Shown piece by piece: positions 36,384 to 43,888 of a DNA stretch of 64,000 nt. This stretch comes from Planctomycetia bacterium. Lineage in GTDB: Bacteria > Planctomycetota > Brocadiia > Brocadiales > Brocadiaceae. The notes beneath the pieces were generated by a model, which was not told the origin of the DNA, did no database searches, and saw only the letters and a list, made by a program, of their open reading frames with translations. The position numbers and the translations under genes are program-made. The DNA lies in contig JABTVC010000002.1 in assembly GCA_015075005.1 (NCBI GenBank), positions 1 to 64,000 on the forward strand. Reading direction: 5' to 3'. Each line of letters begins with the position of its first letter. Positions within the stretch are counted from its first letter, which is position 1.

Positions 36384-39300
36384 TTATGCCTTTTCTACTT
36401 TTATCAACTCGCCGCTAATGTACTTCTTCATGAAATCGTTTTCGTTGCCGGTCGTATATCCGGTTTTTGCCGGATCCCATACTCCCTTACCGCCCATACC
36501 GCCATCCTCTGCCTTAGTTACCTTCACCAAGGTTTCTTTTGGAACAGTATTGATTCCATGATTATCACCCTCGAAGCCAAAAATAAACTTCATACCAATC
36601 TTTGCTTTGTGGAACAGGCTGTCCAACTGGTGCATCGGCATTGACCAATCCCTGGTAAGACTCTGCTGGGAACCATAACGGAAACTGGATTGATAACCGG
36701 TACCCGCTGATAATGCCCTGCCATCAGGTCTTGTTTCATGCGCCTTCACACTTCTTTCCGTTGCAATCCACGAAGAGTGCTTAATCATCGTTACCCCGTA
36801 AGGGTAAGATGAATTGTACTTTGCCCTCAGCATAAGCCTGGATACTTTATAGAAAGGATCATTCGGTTTCCAGCCTTCGTATGGCCTATCGGCCGGGTTA
36901 GCATCGACGTAAACGTAATCACCGTCATTGATACCCAAATCCTTAGCTGCCTGCGGGTTTATATTAATCTGATGTTCACCAACGCCTGGCATTCTCTTAT
37001 CCATTCTGTATGGATCACCAAAGTTGTTATTCCAGATAAAATTCCAGTCTGTTACAGCCCATTGTGAATGCACCGTATGTCTGGATTTAGGCGTTACACA
37101 AAAGAACTTATATCCTTTTTCCCACAGGAAGTTCTTTGTTTGCTTTGTCTCAGCCCATGATTTCTTGATATTCCGTACCGTTCTGTCGTCCCAGTGCTCT
37201 GCATTCTCTGGAACTCCATAATCATCGGGACGGATATATGGATTAGTGCTTACAATTACATTTGGTAAGTACTGAGTTGCTTCAGGCCCCTCACGATGTA
37301 CGATGAAATTTTCGCCATACTCAATGATTTCTGATTCATCATTGTAAGCCTGCAATCTTCCGGTTGGTGTATAGAATGGTATACTTTCGTGTACCTGTTC
37401 CCAGAATGGATGCCTTGGATAAGTCCTGTAATTTAATAAGGCAACACCAGGTTCACCGTATTTGCCATTTATGATATCATCAAAAGTATACCCTTTGCCG
37501 GTCGTACTACCATCCAGCAATCTGTTTATATAAACCTCAGGTCTGCCCTCCAAAGCAAATTTCCAGACGTCCCTGAATCTCATATCCCTGAGCAATTCAC
37601 CCAGCTTAGCCGCCATGCCAGCAATGATCATCACATCGTCCTTGGAGTCATTAACTGGCCTTATACCACCCTTCCATATCTGGAAGAACGGATTTGAGCA
37701 TGAACAGGTAATCTCGTGTGTCTCAAATTCCATCCATGAATTGGCAGGAAATGCAAAGTCTGCATACTCGATAGAACCCGTCATTTCAATATCAGTAGAC
37801 ATAATCTGCTCAATATTGGGGTTCACATTCTTCAGCATATGATACACATGCTTTGCATTATTGACCAGGTTTACATTGGTAAACCACATAACCTTGGTCG
37901 GTGTAGGCATATGTGTCTTCCCTGTAAAACATTTGCGCCCGTACTTGGGTGTGTTAACAATCAACGGCCTGTCACTATGATTCCAGTACGCCACTTCCTC
38001 GTCATATGCACGGCCTTTCACCTTCAAATCCATTGCTGATGCATCTGGATCGAGGTTTGGATTAAATACATCCTCAGCTACCCAACCATAAAAACCAGGG
38101 CCGCTCCATTTGGAAGCCTGGAAATTACCTGCTTTGTAATTACCTGCCCACGTATGTGAACCTGAACCCATATAACCAACGTTCCCGGTTAACATTAATG
38201 GTAAGTAGGTTGACCTATTCATTAATGTTGCATGAAACCAGTGATTAATACCTTCACCGTAATGGATCGCTACTGGTTTTATAGTCGCAATATCGTGCGC
38301 CAACCTTACGATTAACTCTTTTGGAGAATTGGTTATTTCGACTACGCTGTCGATATCATAATCTTTAAGGTGTATCTTATACATCTCAAAGAGCGGCATG
38401 ACCTCGACATCTTTACCATCAACAGTTTTTACCATGAATGTACCATCGAGTGCAGGATCAATCCCTTTAGCCGCCAGTTTATCACCAACATCGTCCCTGG
38501 TGATCGGTTTTGGGCCATTCGTCTTTGCATCCCAAACTACAAAGTCCCCCAGAATTTCTCTCTGATCATCATGCAAACCATGAATCTTATAGCTGGCACC
38601 ATGTGAAATATCTTCTAATTTGTAATCAGGAAATATATCCCTGGCCTGCAATCTTTTTAAGGTATCGGTTCTTACGAGTAAAGGGAAATCGGTAAACCTC
38701 TTTACATAATCTGCATCATACAGCTTTTCGTCCATTAAAATCTTCGTTAAGCCTAGGAAAAGTGCCGTGTCTGTATTACACTTTATCGGTATCCAGTAAT
38801 CTGCTTTTTGGGCAGACGGACTATATTCTGGTGTAATAACAACAATTTTTCCGCCTCTTTCCATAACCTGGGTAACCCAGTGTGCCTCAGGCATTTTATT
38901 TTCGATCAGGTTTTTTCCCGTTTGGATAAGCAACTTCGAAAACCTTACATCATTCATATCAACATCAGATGTCTGCAAACCATGCGAGAAAGGATGACCA
39001 GGCGCCTGATCCCCATGCCACGTATAGTTCGACCAATTCCTTCCGCCTAATGCCTTATCAGGCCCAACGCCCCTGTTGTGGCTATCAACAAGAGACAGCA
39101 TATTATTAAACCGGTACATCCCATATTTACCAATTACACCCAAAAGACCCATACCACCACGACCTTTGAAGGTACGTGTGCCGGCCCCTTTCATAGCATC
39201 CACCATTTCTTTCGGATATCCCTGTTCTATCAGCTTTTTAGCGCCTTCTTCACCACTGTACTTCTTGGTAATATGAATTATCCCCTTCGACGCATATGTC

Positions 39301-39833
39301 CAAGCCTCATCCCAGGATGCCTTTAAAAGCTCATCCTGACCCCTGGCATCAAACATATACTTTGATTTATTTTCCGGTGTCAATTCCGGAAACCCATCAT
39401 CTGCCCACTGCTTCCAGCCTTTTCTGATAAGCGGATATCTCAACCTATATGGACCATAAACCCGGCGGTGAAATGTATAACCTTTCAAACACATCCTGGG
39501 ATTCCAGTTCCTCGTCGCCTTATTTCCGTAAAGGTCTGAGTAATTCTGATGGTCGTAATTCTGTTCAACCCTCATAACCACTTCATTTCTTACAAACGCC
39601 CTTACCCTGCAGGCATGGGTGTCATTCGGCGAGCAAGTAAAGGTAAATGTTCGATCATACCTATACTGGTCACGATATACGCTTTCCCATGCACGGTCGG
39701 GATAGGCATCCAACGGATTTCCCACCTCAACTACAGGCTTCAACAACCTGAACGCCATTGCCTTATTAGCAAGGGTAAATGTCGCTCCTGCTGCACCTGC
39801 CACCTGTAGGAAAGCCCTTCTTGTAAGTTTCAT
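36384..39833 (-). CDS. nxrA: Nitrite oxidoreductase catalytic subunit NxrA
   Basis: 1149 residues from the ATG at 39833 (GGAG upstream); the open frame starts ten codons earlier. The Tat signal is MKLTRRAFLQ. It is a type II DMSO-reductase-family molybdenum enzyme that oxidises nitrite to nitrate, or the reverse. The FS0 cluster motif reads Cys67-x3-Asp71-x3-Cys75 with Cys115, so Asp stands where most relatives have a second Cys. The probable molybdenum ligand is Asp275 in TWHGDQAPG. Further family regions are WIPIKCNTDTALFLGL and HYGEGINHWFHA. In anammox cells the enzyme is inside the anammoxosome. It follows the zincin-like gene by about 60 bp. Confidence 0.97.
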   Translation of the reverse strand: MKLTRRAFLQVAGAAGATFTLANKAMAFRLLKPVVEVGNPLDAYPDRAWESVYRDQYRYDRTFTFTCSPNDTHACRVRAFVRNEVVMRVEQNYDHQNYSDLYGNKATRNWNPRMCLKGYTFHRRVYGPYRLRYPLIRKGWKQWADDGFPELTPENKSKYMFDARGQDELLKASWDEAWTYASKGIIHITKKYSGEEGAKKLIEQGYPKEMVDAMKGAGTRTFKGRGGMGLLGVIGKYGMYRFNNMLSLVDSHNRGVGPDKALGGRNWSNYTWHGDQAPGHPFSHGLQTSDVDMNDVRFSKLLIQTGKNLIENKMPEAHWVTQVMERGGKIVVITPEYSPSAQKADYWIPIKCNTDTALFLGLTKILMDEKLYDADYVKRFTDFPLLVRTDTLKRLQARDIFPDYKLEDISHGASYKIHGLHDDQREILGDFVVWDAKTNGPKPITRDDVGDKLAAKGIDPALDGTFMVKTVDGKDVEVMPLFEMYKIHLKDYDIDSVVEITNSPKELIVRLAHDIATIKPVAIHYGEGINHWFHATLMNRSTYLPLMLTGNVGYMGSGSHTWAGNYKAGNFQASKWSGPGFYGWVAEDVFNPNLDPDASAMDLKVKGRAYDEEVAYWNHSDRPLIVNTPKYGRKCFTGKTHMPTPTKVMWFTNVNLVNNAKHVYHMLKNVNPNIEQIMSTDIEMTGSIEYADFAFPANSWMEFETHEITCSCSNPFFQIWKGGIRPVNDSKDDVMIIAGMAAKLGELLRDMRFRDVWKFALEGRPEVYINRLLDGSTTGKGYTFDDIINGKYGEPGVALLNYRTYPRHPFWEQVHESIPFYTPTGRLQAYNDESEIIEYGENFIVHREGPEATQYLPNVIVSTNPYIRPDDYGVPENAEHWDDRTVRNIKKSWAETKQTKNFLWEKGYKFFCVTPKSRHTVHSQWAVTDWNFIWNNNFGDPYRMDKRMPGVGEHQININPQAAKDLGINDGDYVYVDANPADRPYEGWKPNDPFYKVSRLMLRAKYNSSYPYGVTMIKHSSWIATERSVKAHETRPDGRALSAGTGYQSSFRYGSQQSLTRDWSMPMHQLDSLFHKAKIGMKFIFGFEGDNHGINTVPKETLVKVTKAEDGGMGGKGVWDPAKTGYTTGNENDFMKKYISGELIKVEKA

Positions 39834-39896
39834 ATCTCCTACTCCTTTCCCAATATAAAACACTTTATATAAAAAGTTTATTCTAATTAAACAATA

Positions 39897-40850
39897 TTAG
39901 CAAACAATACTTCTTACCTTGTAAGCCTCTATACATTGCCCACACACACCATCTCCCGGTTCCCAACCAGGAAAATCTTTTTTTATTGCATCCACAAGAT
40001 GAACATCTTGTTCAATGTTTTCCACCCACCGATAAGTACGAAATTGGCATAGCGGGCATTGGGCACCTGGCAATATCGTTTTTTTCTTCTTTAGCGCGTG
40101 CTTTATGGGTAACCCTTCAGAAATTTTTATTACTTCATTCACATCTTTTGCCAGTCCCAGTATCTTATCATGTGTTAAATTCTCATCTTGCCACAGAACA
40201 TCAAAAATAGCAATTTTCACTTCCTCAGGAATCTTTTTATAGAGAGACTCAAATTCTGCATATCTTCCCCCTTTGTCAGATAATGTTTCTTTCCTATTCC
40301 TGATTAATCGGCTATCGACGTAGATATCCCAAAAAGTACAATAGCGCTCCTTAACGATACTCTCTTCCATGGGATTACCACCGAGGCGTTCATCACGATA
40401 GCCGTATGATTCACTGAGCATATCAGATGCATGCATCAGTTCGTGCCTGACCAATTTTTTTAGATAAGGAATATCCAGGTAACGGTCTGGCAGTAATTTA
40501 ATAACAATCTTTTTTTGACCAACCTCCTGGTTCATTCCTTTTGTAAGATAAGAGCCTTCATCAAAGTTGTTCACCGCCTTTGCAACCACTCCACCACAAG
40601 CTTTCTTTCCAAGCTCAGGAAACTCATCAAAGACCTCCTTTATTGCCTTTGGTAACTCGAGTTTTTTAAAGAAGTCCCATTCGATCTTTTTAAACTGCGA
40701 AGGCCTTTCATCTAAGGAAAAATTTTCGTAAACCGGATCAATACAAGAATGATATTCGGTGGTAAAAGAAAAATCACCCTTTCCCTCCTTTGTCTTTAAT
40801 TCTCCAAATATTACTTCTTCAATCAGACTTGGGTCAAATTCCAGCTTCAT
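39897..40850 (-). CDS. HExxH zincin-like protein with a C-terminal zinc ribbon (nxr-associated)
   Basis: 317 residues from the ATG at 40850, one base after the chaperone stop and with GAGGAA upstream. RHELMHASDML gives a zincin-type HExxH (His-Glu-Leu-Met-His), and acidic residues follow in YGYRDERLGG and MEESIVKERY, though I cannot assign the third ligand. The C-terminus has two Cys pairs, CPLC and CGQC, a zinc ribbon. No signal peptide, so it is cytoplasmic. Its place between the chaperone and nxrA suggests a role in NxrA maturation, for example proteolysis or folding control. I do not recognise a named family. Confidence 0.75.
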   Translation of the reverse strand: MKLEFDPSLIEEVIFGELKTKEGKGDFSFTTEYHSCIDPVYENFSLDERPSQFKKIEWDFFKKLELPKAIKEVFDEFPELGKKACGGVVAKAVNNFDEGSYLTKGMNQEVGQKKIVIKLLPDRYLDIPYLKKLVRHELMHASDMLSESYGYRDERLGGNPMEESIVKERYCTFWDIYVDSRLIRNRKETLSDKGGRYAEFESLYKKIPEEVKIAIFDVLWQDENLTHDKILGLAKDVNEVIKISEGLPIKHALKKKKTILPGAQCPLCQFRTYRWVENIEQDVHLVDAIKKDFPGWEPGDGVCGQCIEAYKVRSIVC

Positions 40851-40851
40851 A

Positions 40852-41646
40852 TCATTCCTCATTGAAATCTTCAGAAGTCGCGCAGGATAAACACTCATCG
40901 GATGCCCCAGCCACCGCCTCCTGATTGAGATCGGACTCCTTGTATATCTCCGTCTTAATATCCATGTGTTTCATTTCTAACCTCAAGAACTCTTTTGTCA
41001 GAGCAGATACGGCATAGTAGAAACCTTCCCCAGCCTTCCTGCCAAAGAGAACCGAGAAAAGAGGCGCCCATTTCCCCAGATGCTCTTTCAAGAACTTCTT
41101 TTGCGCATCCACGCATATCTGCGCTTTTTCATCTCCATGGTTTTCCAGGGCGTAGGCTTGCTTATACAGCAAAAAGTGCATAAACTCTAACTCTACACTA
41201 ATATGGTCGCATCGTTCTTTCTCTATATCGGAAATATCAACCCCAAAAGCCTTATAAAAGCCTTGAATATCACCCAACTCATGCACTTGCTGAAACACAT
41301 GAGCTGCGCCATATTGAGTTTCGTACAAAGGACACTCTTTCGACATGGTGTGTCCAACGATGCGCTGATAGACGCCTTGTAAGGTTTCAATGGCTGTAAC
41401 CCTGAACAATCCCCGGACCTCTTTCAAACATCTTTTTAACTCCGCACCCTCATCTATACCTCCGTAACAGAGCACCAACTCTTTCTCGTGTTCCTGGAAA
41501 TCAGGACTTTTCAGCATTGACAGATTTTTCTCTGTTGGGTAAAGAAAACAGGCAGACAAAATTTGATACATTGCACTCCTTGCAAGCAAATCACTTACTC
41601 GCGGTGCAATTTTTTGATCTAAAAGACTACTTGTGTCTACTTCCAT
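40852..41646 (-). CDS. TorD/NarJ-type molybdoenzyme chaperone
   Basis: 264 residues from the ATG at 41646, which has GAGG six bases upstream. All-helical; the segments LLARSAMYQILSACFLYPTEKNL, YETQYGAAHVFQQVHELGDIQGFYKAFGVD and DHISVELEFMHFLLYKQAYA match the TorD/DmsD/NarJ family, which binds the Tat signal and guides cofactor insertion into the catalytic subunit. It is encoded between nxrB and the zincin-like gene, the NarJ-like position. A short Cys-containing tail (CLSCATSED) is unusual. Confidence 0.9.
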   Translation of the reverse strand: MEVDTSSLLDQKIAPRVSDLLARSAMYQILSACFLYPTEKNLSMLKSPDFQEHEKELVLCYGGIDEGAELKRCLKEVRGLFRVTAIETLQGVYQRIVGHTMSKECPLYETQYGAAHVFQQVHELGDIQGFYKAFGVDISDIEKERCDHISVELEFMHFLLYKQAYALENHGDEKAQICVDAQKKFLKEHLGKWAPLFSVLFGRKAGEGFYYAVSALTKEFLRLEMKHMDIKTEIYKESDLNQEAVAGASDECLSCATSEDFNEE

Positions 41647-41660
41647 AAGAAACCTCAATT

Positions 41661-42872
41661 CTAAATTGAATTGTAATGTTTAGGGTCTCTGATGTAAACA
41701 GGCTCTTCTATCGTAGTTCTTACAATTTCCTGCCCATCTTCACCATACCCAATAACGGTATCGTTGAACATCTCAAACTTCTTGCCGTGAATCGTCGTCT
41801 CAAACACCTTTGGCCCTTCCTCAATCTTGTACTCAAATATAATAGCTTGCGCCATTCTGAATAAGGACATCACCGCAAGTCTTTCGCGAGAAGGCACCAT
41901 AAATTTATCGATTGCTTCATCGACACCTGGACCGAACATCTGTCTTAAATATGGCCTTGGCGCCCACCTGGGAGGAATATAATAGATATTAGGCTCTGTT
42001 CCAAACTGAGGATACAGCGGCAACGCCAGCTTGTCATGCCGGATCAACCATGTAACCGGATTCTTTGGATTATCATCCAAAAATCCCTGTAAACGGATCT
42101 GTCCTACACAGGCCGCCATACACCTGGTCTCCATTGGACGTCCCTTCGTTATAGGATCTTTTCCCTCAACACGCGGATAACAGGCGATACACTTTTCGCT
42201 TACCCTTGTCAAACCTCTATACATGGGTTTTTTGTAAGGGCACTGTTCAACACATTTTCTATAACCCCGACATCTCTTCTGATCGATAAGAACAATTCCA
42301 TCTTCTTTTCTCTTGTAGATAGCCTTCCTTGGGCAGGCAGCCAAACAACCCGGATACGTACAATGATTACAAAGTCTCTGTATATAGAAAAACCAACGGC
42401 TGTGTTCGGGCAACGAAGAGTATTCGTCCGCCTTATTACTTTTTGCAACATCTTCACCAATGTTTGGAGACCGCCATTCCTTATCTTCAGGGATATATCC
42501 AACGGCCCATTGATTTATATTCTTCTTTGAAGCAGCTTCAAATATGGTATCGCCTTCATACACACCATAAGGAGATGTTTTTTCATCTTTTTCATCTGTA
42601 TACCAGGTATTTTCGCCATTATCAATTAATTTTAATGTTTTAATATCCCAAGACTGCGGATATCCGCCATAAGGTTTGGTTTCCACATTGTTCCACCACA
42701 TGTGCTCCTGCCCCTTGTTATAACTCCACGCACTTTTGCAGGCCATAGTACATGTCTGACAGGCAATACACCTGTTCGTGTTAAATATTGCAGCAAACTG
42801 CCGCTTCGGTCTGGATTCGAAATAGGGATACTCCATCCGTCTCCCTAAATGCCAGTTATGCACCAATGTCAT
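41661..42872 (-). CDS. nxrB: Nitrite oxidoreductase iron-sulfur subunit NxrB
   Basis: 403 residues with four cluster-binding motifs: Cys35/38/41/45 (CIACQTCTMAC); Cys168/171/176/180; Cys201-x2-Tyr204-x2-Cys207-x3-Cys211, where Tyr replaces a Cys and so predicts a [3Fe-4S] cluster; and Cys228/231 with Cys251/255. It carries electrons from NxrA to NxrC or external carriers. It lacks its own signal peptide and is probably exported with Tat-dependent NxrA. It follows nxrC by about 40 bp and precedes the chaperone gene. Confidence 0.97.
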   Translation of the reverse strand: MTLVHNWHLGRRMEYPYFESRPKRQFAAIFNTNRCIACQTCTMACKSAWSYNKGQEHMWWNNVETKPYGGYPQSWDIKTLKLIDNGENTWYTDEKDEKTSPYGVYEGDTIFEAASKKNINQWAVGYIPEDKEWRSPNIGEDVAKSNKADEYSSLPEHSRWFFYIQRLCNHCTYPGCLAACPRKAIYKRKEDGIVLIDQKRCRGYRKCVEQCPYKKPMYRGLTRVSEKCIACYPRVEGKDPITKGRPMETRCMAACVGQIRLQGFLDDNPKNPVTWLIRHDKLALPLYPQFGTEPNIYYIPPRWAPRPYLRQMFGPGVDEAIDKFMVPSRERLAVMSLFRMAQAIIFEYKIEEGPKVFETTIHGKKFEMFNDTVIGYGEDGQEIVRTTIEEPVYIRDPKHYNSI

Positions 42873-42913: not shown

Positions 42914-43888
42914 CTACTGCCAAGCAACCCTTTCCAGTGTAGCAGGATGCCACTGAGTCGATATGTTCTTTTGACCATTCCTGTCTTGTTCACCACCATT
43001 CCATACCGCCATATTGAAATAGGTAGTCCCTCCAGGCACGAGCTGTACATCGTGCGGATCTACCGTAATTAATGAACGATACATAATTACCGTCCACACC
43101 CCGTCCTCATATTTACTGCATCCATTTACGTCCTGATGAGCTTGCGTGGTAAGCGTACCAAAACCCTCGGCATTTAAATCCTCTACCACTCTTCCCCTTC
43201 CAGGCTGAGAAAGCAGGTTATTAGCAGCCCTACCCCCCGACAAAACCTCTATACTAGTTATTAATTCCCGATGATAATATGCACTATAAGGATTAAAATT
43301 AAAATCATCATGCATATTCGGGTACTGTACTTCGACATCTTCCAACTCGCCCTTAACCAGCAAATCTGCCTCCCAGTCCGCCTTCCAATGCCAAAGATTT
43401 ATTGGTTTTTCCCGATCTCCCATTCTGGGGCTGAAGTGTTCCGCCGGCGTTATCTCCACTGCCCCCAGAGGAAACATCAAAGCAACGGCATCTCTAAACT
43501 CCTGAACCGCAATTGCTCTGGCATTTTTCGTAGAATCACTCCAGGAAATCTTAAAATATATCGTTAGGCCGTCATGGATAGCTTTTACTTCTGCACTACT
43601 CACAGACCCACCGCCATTCGGAAAGGCCTTATCCTGTTTTTGGAGCGGAACCGTAACGGCTTTTGCATCCTTAAAAAAACCCTGTAACGAATCCACATCC
43701 AAATGATAAGGTCTGTCCATTTGTACAAACTTCACCTCTACCACCTCTTTCGCCGGAGTAAATTCTTCCTCACTTGCCTCTTTCACTCCAGGTGCTGTTT
43801 CCTCAGCAGCAAACAATGCACTACTAAGAAAAGCACAGCTTAAGAGGGCCACGCCATATCTTTTTAACAATAAGTAATTCTTCTTCAT
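42914..43888 (-). CDS. nxrC: Nitrite oxidoreductase haem b subunit NxrC
   Basis: 324 residues. A cleavable signal peptide (about 1-28) leads to an ethylbenzene-dehydrogenase gamma-type (EB_dh) haem-b domain: YFKISWSDSTKNARA, DAVALMFPLG, NLWHWKADWEADLL and VWTVIMYRSL. Such subunits bind one haem b with Met and Lys ligands and pass electrons to soluble carriers. First gene of the nxrCB-chaperone-zincin-nxrA-cupredoxin set; a candidate promoter lies about 80 bp upstream. Confidence 0.93.
   Translation of the reverse strand: MKKNYLLLKRYGVALLSCAFLSSALFAAEETAPGVKEASEEEFTPAKEVVEVKFVQMDRPYHLDVDSLQGFFKDAKAVTVPLQKQDKAFPNGGGSVSSAEVKAIHDGLTIYFKISWSDSTKNARAIAVQEFRDAVALMFPLGAVEITPAEHFSPRMGDREKPINLWHWKADWEADLLVKGELEDVEVQYPNMHDDFNFNPYSAYYHRELITSIEVLSGGRAANNLLSQPGRGRVVEDLNAEGFGTLTTQAHQDVNGCSKYEDGVWTVIMYRSLITVDPHDVQLVPGGTTYFNMAVWNGGEQDRNGQKNISTQWHPATLERVAWQ

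Follow-up and report, generated by a model that had tools for sequence, protein, structure and literature searches.

ZNP, a zincin-like protein linked to a single clade of periplasmic-type NXR, is a candidate biogenesis factor with repeated loss of its HExxH motif

Why does an NXR gene cluster encode a protein with an HExxH motif between a molybdoenzyme chaperone and the catalytic subunit? The locus lies in the window studied here, i.e., the whole 64,000-nucleotide stretch of DNA that was analysed, which comes from an anammox bacterium and whose NxrB has near relatives named Candidatus Brocadia. An earlier note on this DNA had described a protein with HELMH and two C-terminal CxxC motifs at 39897-40850, coupled to a TorD/NarJ-like chaperone and located before nxrA, and had suggested that it could be either a dedicated NXR maturation protease or a metal-dependent factor of quality control. 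The motifs, coordinates and gene order were confirmed. The gene, termed znp for NXR-linked zincin-like protein, is on the minus strand (40850..39897 including the stop) and encodes 317 amino acids, and the plus strand at these coordinates is crowded with stops. The HELMH codons (residues 136-140; 40431..40445) are followed on the minus strand by the D143 codon of HExxHxxD (40422..40424), by a second helix segment, R169..W174..D179-x-R181 (40308..40346), and by the C-terminal ribbon CPLC..C303xxC306 (residues 265-306; 39933..40058), in which the two CxxC motifs are C265-C268 and C303-C306. An alternative in-frame ATG upstream at 40898 would give 333 amino acids; the conserved start (MKLEFDP/MRLEFDP) is that of the 317-residue form, and no signal peptide was evident in ZNP by eye.

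The neighboring genes, all on the minus strand, were assigned by Pfam and NCBIfam models of the nitrate-reductase-delta and type II DMSO reductase families. The genes nxrB (41661..42872, Fe-S subunit) and nxrC (42914..43888, haem b subunit, EB_dh) are upstream of torD-znp-nxrA. The torD gene (40852..41658) encodes a TorD/NarJ-like, type II DMSO reductase chaperone (PF02613, E 7e-19; TIGR03482, E 6.7e-28, under the cut-off of the latter model), and its TGA stop (40852-40854) is separated by 1 nt from the znp ATG, which has GAGG directly upstream. The nxrA gene (36384..39863) encodes the catalytic subunit with the Tat signal MKLTRRAFL and likely starts at 39833; with this start, MKLTRR, the gap from znp is 63 nt.

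The motif combination in ZNP is not one that composition readily produces: a protein so composed would contain HExxH 0.012 times on average, and HExxH together with two CxxC motifs occurred in only 2 of 20,000 shuffles. The dN/dS of znp against near relatives is 0.06-0.10, similar to torD, and the gene is under purifying selection. By cluster position, znp is the equivalent of Kuenenia kustd1701, which was listed as an "unknown protein" (PMC6423088). The transcript of kustd1701 decreased 5.5-fold under NO along with the whole NXR cluster, and its protein was undetected whereas the NXR subunits were detected (PMC6423088), a combination that fits a low-abundance accessory protein.

ZNP represents a genuine family, associated with a single clade of periplasmic-type NXR. 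Among anammox bacteria, znp is present in all NXR loci whose contig extends that far, and NXR-linked copies were found in 28 of 33 Brocadiaceae-type and 11 of 14 Scalindua-type genomes (the underlying genome listing also counted unlinked short paralogues). The exceptions are genomes with the NxrB match near a contig end (G014, G034, G044, G054) and assemblies in which NXR-type nxrB was not found (G006, G016, G017, G027, G046). Among 118 Nitrospirota genomes, all 18 with NXR-type nxrB, defined by at least 70% identity, carry ZNP (in one case interrupted by an assembly gap), and six with an nxrB relative of ~51% are without it. Eight more Nitrospirota genomes have a full-length ZNP and no nxrB found, possibly due to multi-copy nxrAB that were not collected in MAGs. 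The gene is present in nine of nine Nitrospina genomes tested, and also in NXR loci of Verrucomicrobiia and Poribacteria. In the Planctomycetota sample of 343 genomes, those outside the Brocadiales families include 32 with NXR-type nxrB, 29 with a ZNP match (weak in two cases) and 25 with both (P = 8.9e-27, Fisher's exact test, indicative only because related genomes are non-independent); most of these pairs are on a single contig within ~6 kb.

The earlier note had named genomes with functional nxrA and no znp as evidence against its proposal, and the distribution partly bears this out. Twenty-one genomes with NXR-type nxrB lack ZNP; they comprise Alpha-, Beta- and Gammaproteobacteria, five Elusimicrobia, a Dehalococcoidia, an Actinobacteria and a Phycisphaerae. 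For Nitrotoga, a confirmed nitrite oxidizer, nxr loci were described with A, B, C and a chaperone only (PMC6050957). On the NxrB tree, ZNP presence takes 7 changes versus 24.7 after shuffling, and 15 of the negatives group in a single clade. A twin-arginine signal is likewise present on NxrA from ZNP-negative clades, so ZNP is dispensable for Tat export in general. Neither this signal, found on both sides, nor any NxrA indel separates ZNP-positive from ZNP-negative enzymes, and both were rejected as dividers. A C-terminal CxxC of TorD, considered as a feature that accompanies ZNP, was likewise rejected because the CxxC tail is present with and without ZNP. As separate observations, one Brocadiales lineage (L120, L222, L223, L224) has NXR-type NxrABC and TorD with no linked ZNP and only a short paralogue elsewhere, and the NXR-type nxrB found in MAGs of Proteobacteria, Elusimicrobia, Chloroflexota and Actinobacteria (L084-L102, L110, L115, L118, L121, L123, L128) could possibly mark unrecognised nitrite oxidizers or nitrate reductases.

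Three gene orders recur, namely TorD-ZNP-NxrA in anammox bacteria, NxrC-ZNP-NxrA-NxrB-TorD, and NxrC-NxrA-NxrB-TorD-ZNP, and wherever ZNP could be placed it adjoins nxrA, torD, nxrB or nxrC, or lies a few kb away. The gene does not always adjoin nxrA, a point that the earlier note had proposed to check: in Nitrospira it heads an operon of ZNP, ferredoxin, TorD, NxrC, a radical SAM/B12 protein, a protein of 370-380 amino acids and a TPR protein, and nxrAB is away from this operon in most contigs read. TatA comes next on two Nitrospira contigs (L237 and L238, with Pfam confirmation for L237 only). The gene content of this operon is that of a maturation/export unit. In Scalindua, genes for a radical SAM/B12 protein and a ferredoxin are downstream of nxrA. 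Operon linkage to one molybdoenzyme clade, one of the criteria for redox enzyme maturation proteins, was found for ZNP. What looked like an internal deletion in a Nitrospira copy (G527) proved to be a run of N and was rejected.

The aligned relatives from anammox bacteria, Nitrospira, Nitrospina, other Planctomycetota, Verrucomicrobiia and Poribacteria have a common architecture: the N-terminal region is helical and is followed by RHExxHxxD, a helix carrying R169, W174 and D179-x-R181, and the ribbon CPLCxFPTxxW...GxCxRC. None of 28 ZNP relatives reached the cut-off of any Pfam or NCBIfam model, the ZNP of the window matched no Pfam family at E ≤ 1, and PDB sequence searches with ZNP and three alignments gave no match. 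The matches below the cut-offs point weakly to zincins: Peptidase_M76 (PF09768) in 4 of 18 members of a mixed set (best E 7.5e-4, under the gathering score), SprT-like (PF10263) in two members (best E 0.013, gathering score not reached) and WLM (E 0.095). In the NXR-linked set M76 was matched by 1 of 28 members (E 0.097), so the weak M76 signal comes mainly from unlinked short paralogues. These are separate HELMH proteins of ~205-260 amino acids in Brocadiales, ribbonless and unlinked to nxr (L037-L043, L047, L048), which in the single locus scanned follow mfd (TRCF) and a SurA-like PPIase.

Structure prediction gave a full-length model with pLDDT 87 and a domain model with pLDDT 93.6, both with three strands, the HExxH helix and then a long helix carrying W174 and D179. 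All representatives with an intact HExxH carry an acidic residue at position 162 or 179, neither position being universal alone, and D179 is a candidate third metal ligand. Judged by its secondary structure, a zincin-like topology of the model is plausible. No PDB entry was matched by Foldseek at E ≤ 1e-3; the best matches were selecase, a minigluzincin (probability 0.82, E 0.38), and 4l7a, a putative zinc metallopeptidase (probability 0.41, E 0.15), and a BFVD fold search gave weak SprT/M34-like matches only. The zincin-like core of the earlier note is made plausible by the predicted topology, with no profile above cut-off and no significant PDB match. On the strength of the models, ZNP likely adopts a zincin fold.

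If ZNP were a peptidase throughout, the HExxH motif would be expected to persist wherever the rest of the protein does. Among the aligned sequences of 56 NXR-type representatives, 45 retain H136 and 48 retain H140, compared with 55 for each of E137, D143 and R169, 56 for W174 and 52 for R181, and the second helix segment is the most conserved part of the domain. The motif is broken in 13 of the 56. On the ZNP tree its loss requires at least 8 changes by a quick method, with some long branches, and the starred branches alone force 3. The broken forms in NXR-linked orthologues include RREFLH, RREFLY, RAELVR, RVELTR, RNEWRH, RRELLF and, in two Nitrospina, IQEFMH, and these orthologues retain the remaining conserved core. 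E137 is kept even where the histidine pair is incomplete; without both histidines it would be useless to a zincin mechanism, and its conservation indicates a structural or binding role. The four ribbon Cys are present in 50 of 56, and the other six representatives are without the ribbon region; ribbon loss coincides with HExxH loss in five of these six (P = 0.002, uncorrected for relatedness). In the motif table, each complete copy from Brocadiaceae or Scalindua retains both HExxH and ribbon, and each complete Nitrospira copy retains HExxH. From this sequence record, proteolysis is probably not the shared job of the family, and the anammox, Scalindua and Nitrospira copies may have peptidase activity. 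One genome has two ZNP copies, one (L098) with RHEIQH and a second (L184:1489-2424) with RREIQR, a possible enzyme/pseudoenzyme pair.

The ribbon also occurs elsewhere. Stand-alone ribbon proteins were found in Nitrospirota without NXR-type nxrB (L233:6941-7420, a tandem double ribbon, and L234:7141-7590), so the module is not confined to NXR. In the NXR loci of Scalindua, a gene located between nxrB and torD encodes a protein of ~200 amino acids with a ZNP-type ribbon (CPLC..CRxC), no HExxH and an N-terminal hydrophobic leader that looks signal-like by eye (L031:4141-4773, L032:5420-6055, L033:7780-8385, L034:6050-6664, L072:2688-3284). It is present in 12 of 14 Scalindua-type genomes and as a fragment in one more, has no separate gene in Brocadiaceae, and is a candidate for an extra exported NXR component.

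We consider it probable, at roughly 0.6, that ZNP is a dedicated NXR biogenesis factor, a zincin-shaped scaffold that acts with TorD on apo-NxrA or NxrAB. ZNP would reside in the cytoplasm and serve one clade of Tat-exported NXR. Together with the TorD-like chaperone it would bind apo-NxrA or NxrAB before export, and hold or proofread it while the Fe-S clusters and Mo-bisPGD are loaded. The zincin-shaped domain would act mainly as a binding scaffold, and the ribbon would provide a second module, for binding or for metal sensing; the zinc site retained in anammox bacteria and Nitrospira may hold structural Zn or be catalytic, and many relatives have lost the histidines while retaining the rest of the protein. 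This reading draws on the linkage and co-occurrence with NXR, the 1-nt spacing from torD in the window, the gene content of the Nitrospira operon, the few changes needed on the NxrB tree and the transcript and protein data for kustd1701, with FdhE as a functional precedent. A scaffold is favored over an enzyme by the near-invariance of E137, D143, R169 and W174 against the two histidines. The intact HExxH of all complete anammox, Scalindua and Nitrospira copies, needless for a scaffold, counts against a pure scaffold, and the eight Nitrospirota genomes with ZNP and no nxrB found, as well as the Tat signal on NxrA of ZNP-negative clades, also count against the reading. A more far-reaching version, that ZNP is a new zincin-fold family rich in pseudoenzymes and serves the nitrate-producing NXR of anammox bacteria, Nitrospira and Nitrospina as an obligatory second chaperone, with lineage-dependent peptidase activity, is put forward tentatively, at somewhat less than even odds.

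The maturation protease of the earlier note survives best among the alternatives and is nevertheless unlikely. Here, an active zinc peptidase in anammox bacteria and Nitrospira would clip an NXR subunit or maturation intermediate, and pseudoenzymes would have arisen where the step had become dispensable. The intact RHELMHxxD of the complete Brocadiaceae, Scalindua and Nitrospira copies, the acidic residue at 162 or 179 as a possible third ligand, and the strand and helix arrangement of the models, including the second conserved helix, are all consistent with it. It is weakened by the broken motif in NXR-linked representatives, two Nitrospina among them, by a fold search with no significant match, and by the literature, in which we found no NXR cleavage other than that of signal peptides. 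Dedication to NXR is supported by co-occurrence and by the presence of znp in NXR loci; proteolysis as the general function is not supported.

We give considerably less credence to an Atp23-type quality-control protease and chaperone that would degrade NxrA failing cofactor loading and also aid assembly. Its appeal lies in the resemblance of HExxHxxD to Peptidase_M76 and in Atp23 itself, which the title of Osman 2007, as cited in PMC8452992, describes as both processing peptidase and chaperone; the near-lack of M76 matches in the NXR-linked set and the repeated HExxH loss argue against it. Equally improbable is delivery or sensing of metal or Fe-S/Mo cofactors through the ribbon and the histidine site, for which the widely kept ribbon Cys, the iron binding of FdhE via CxxC pairs (PMC10609526) and the ferredoxin and radical SAM/B12 genes in the Nitrospira operon and adjoining the Scalindua locus could speak, since the six ribbonless orthologues, five of them also lacking HExxH, leave no universal metal site.

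We know of no heterologous production of active NXR from the ZNP-associated clade, and a conserved second accessory beside TorD would be an obvious candidate for a missing component in such production. The repeated loss of HExxH with the rest kept makes enzyme versus scaffold directly testable.

Membership in the conserved NXR gene set was probably noticed in 2013, when "one putative zinc finger" protein was listed in the set shared by Kuenenia, Nitrospira and Nitrospina (PMC3578206). The lineages and gene set match ZNP, and this protein is probably ZNP, with an HExxH or zincin domain unmentioned there. In the open-access papers searched, neither the HExxH domain nor the wider distribution nor its repeated loss was found to be described.

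Among known systems, the zincins Atp23 (M76), SprT, WLM and selecase have an HExxH helix after a short sheet, as the ZNP models do, and are the source of the weak profile or fold matches; ZNP differs in staying under the Pfam cut-offs, in having no Foldseek match at E ≤ 1e-3 and in its repeated HExxH loss. FdhE, which carries CxxC motifs, accompanies periplasmic formate dehydrogenases exclusively and was inferred to function at the transport step (PMC10609526), resembles ZNP as a non-subunit protein with CxxC pairs that is genetically tied to an exported Mo-bisPGD enzyme, and proofreading before Tat export was inferred for it (PMC10609526). Unlike ZNP, FdhE has no HExxH domain and is tied to FDH rather than NXR, and the profile searches found no sequence match between them. 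TorD, NarJ and DmsD (REMPs) are, like ZNP, accessories dedicated to one molybdoenzyme and encoded in its operon, but they belong to another family, and ZNP is present alongside TorD. We regard ZNP as representing a new family of molybdoenzyme accessory proteins.
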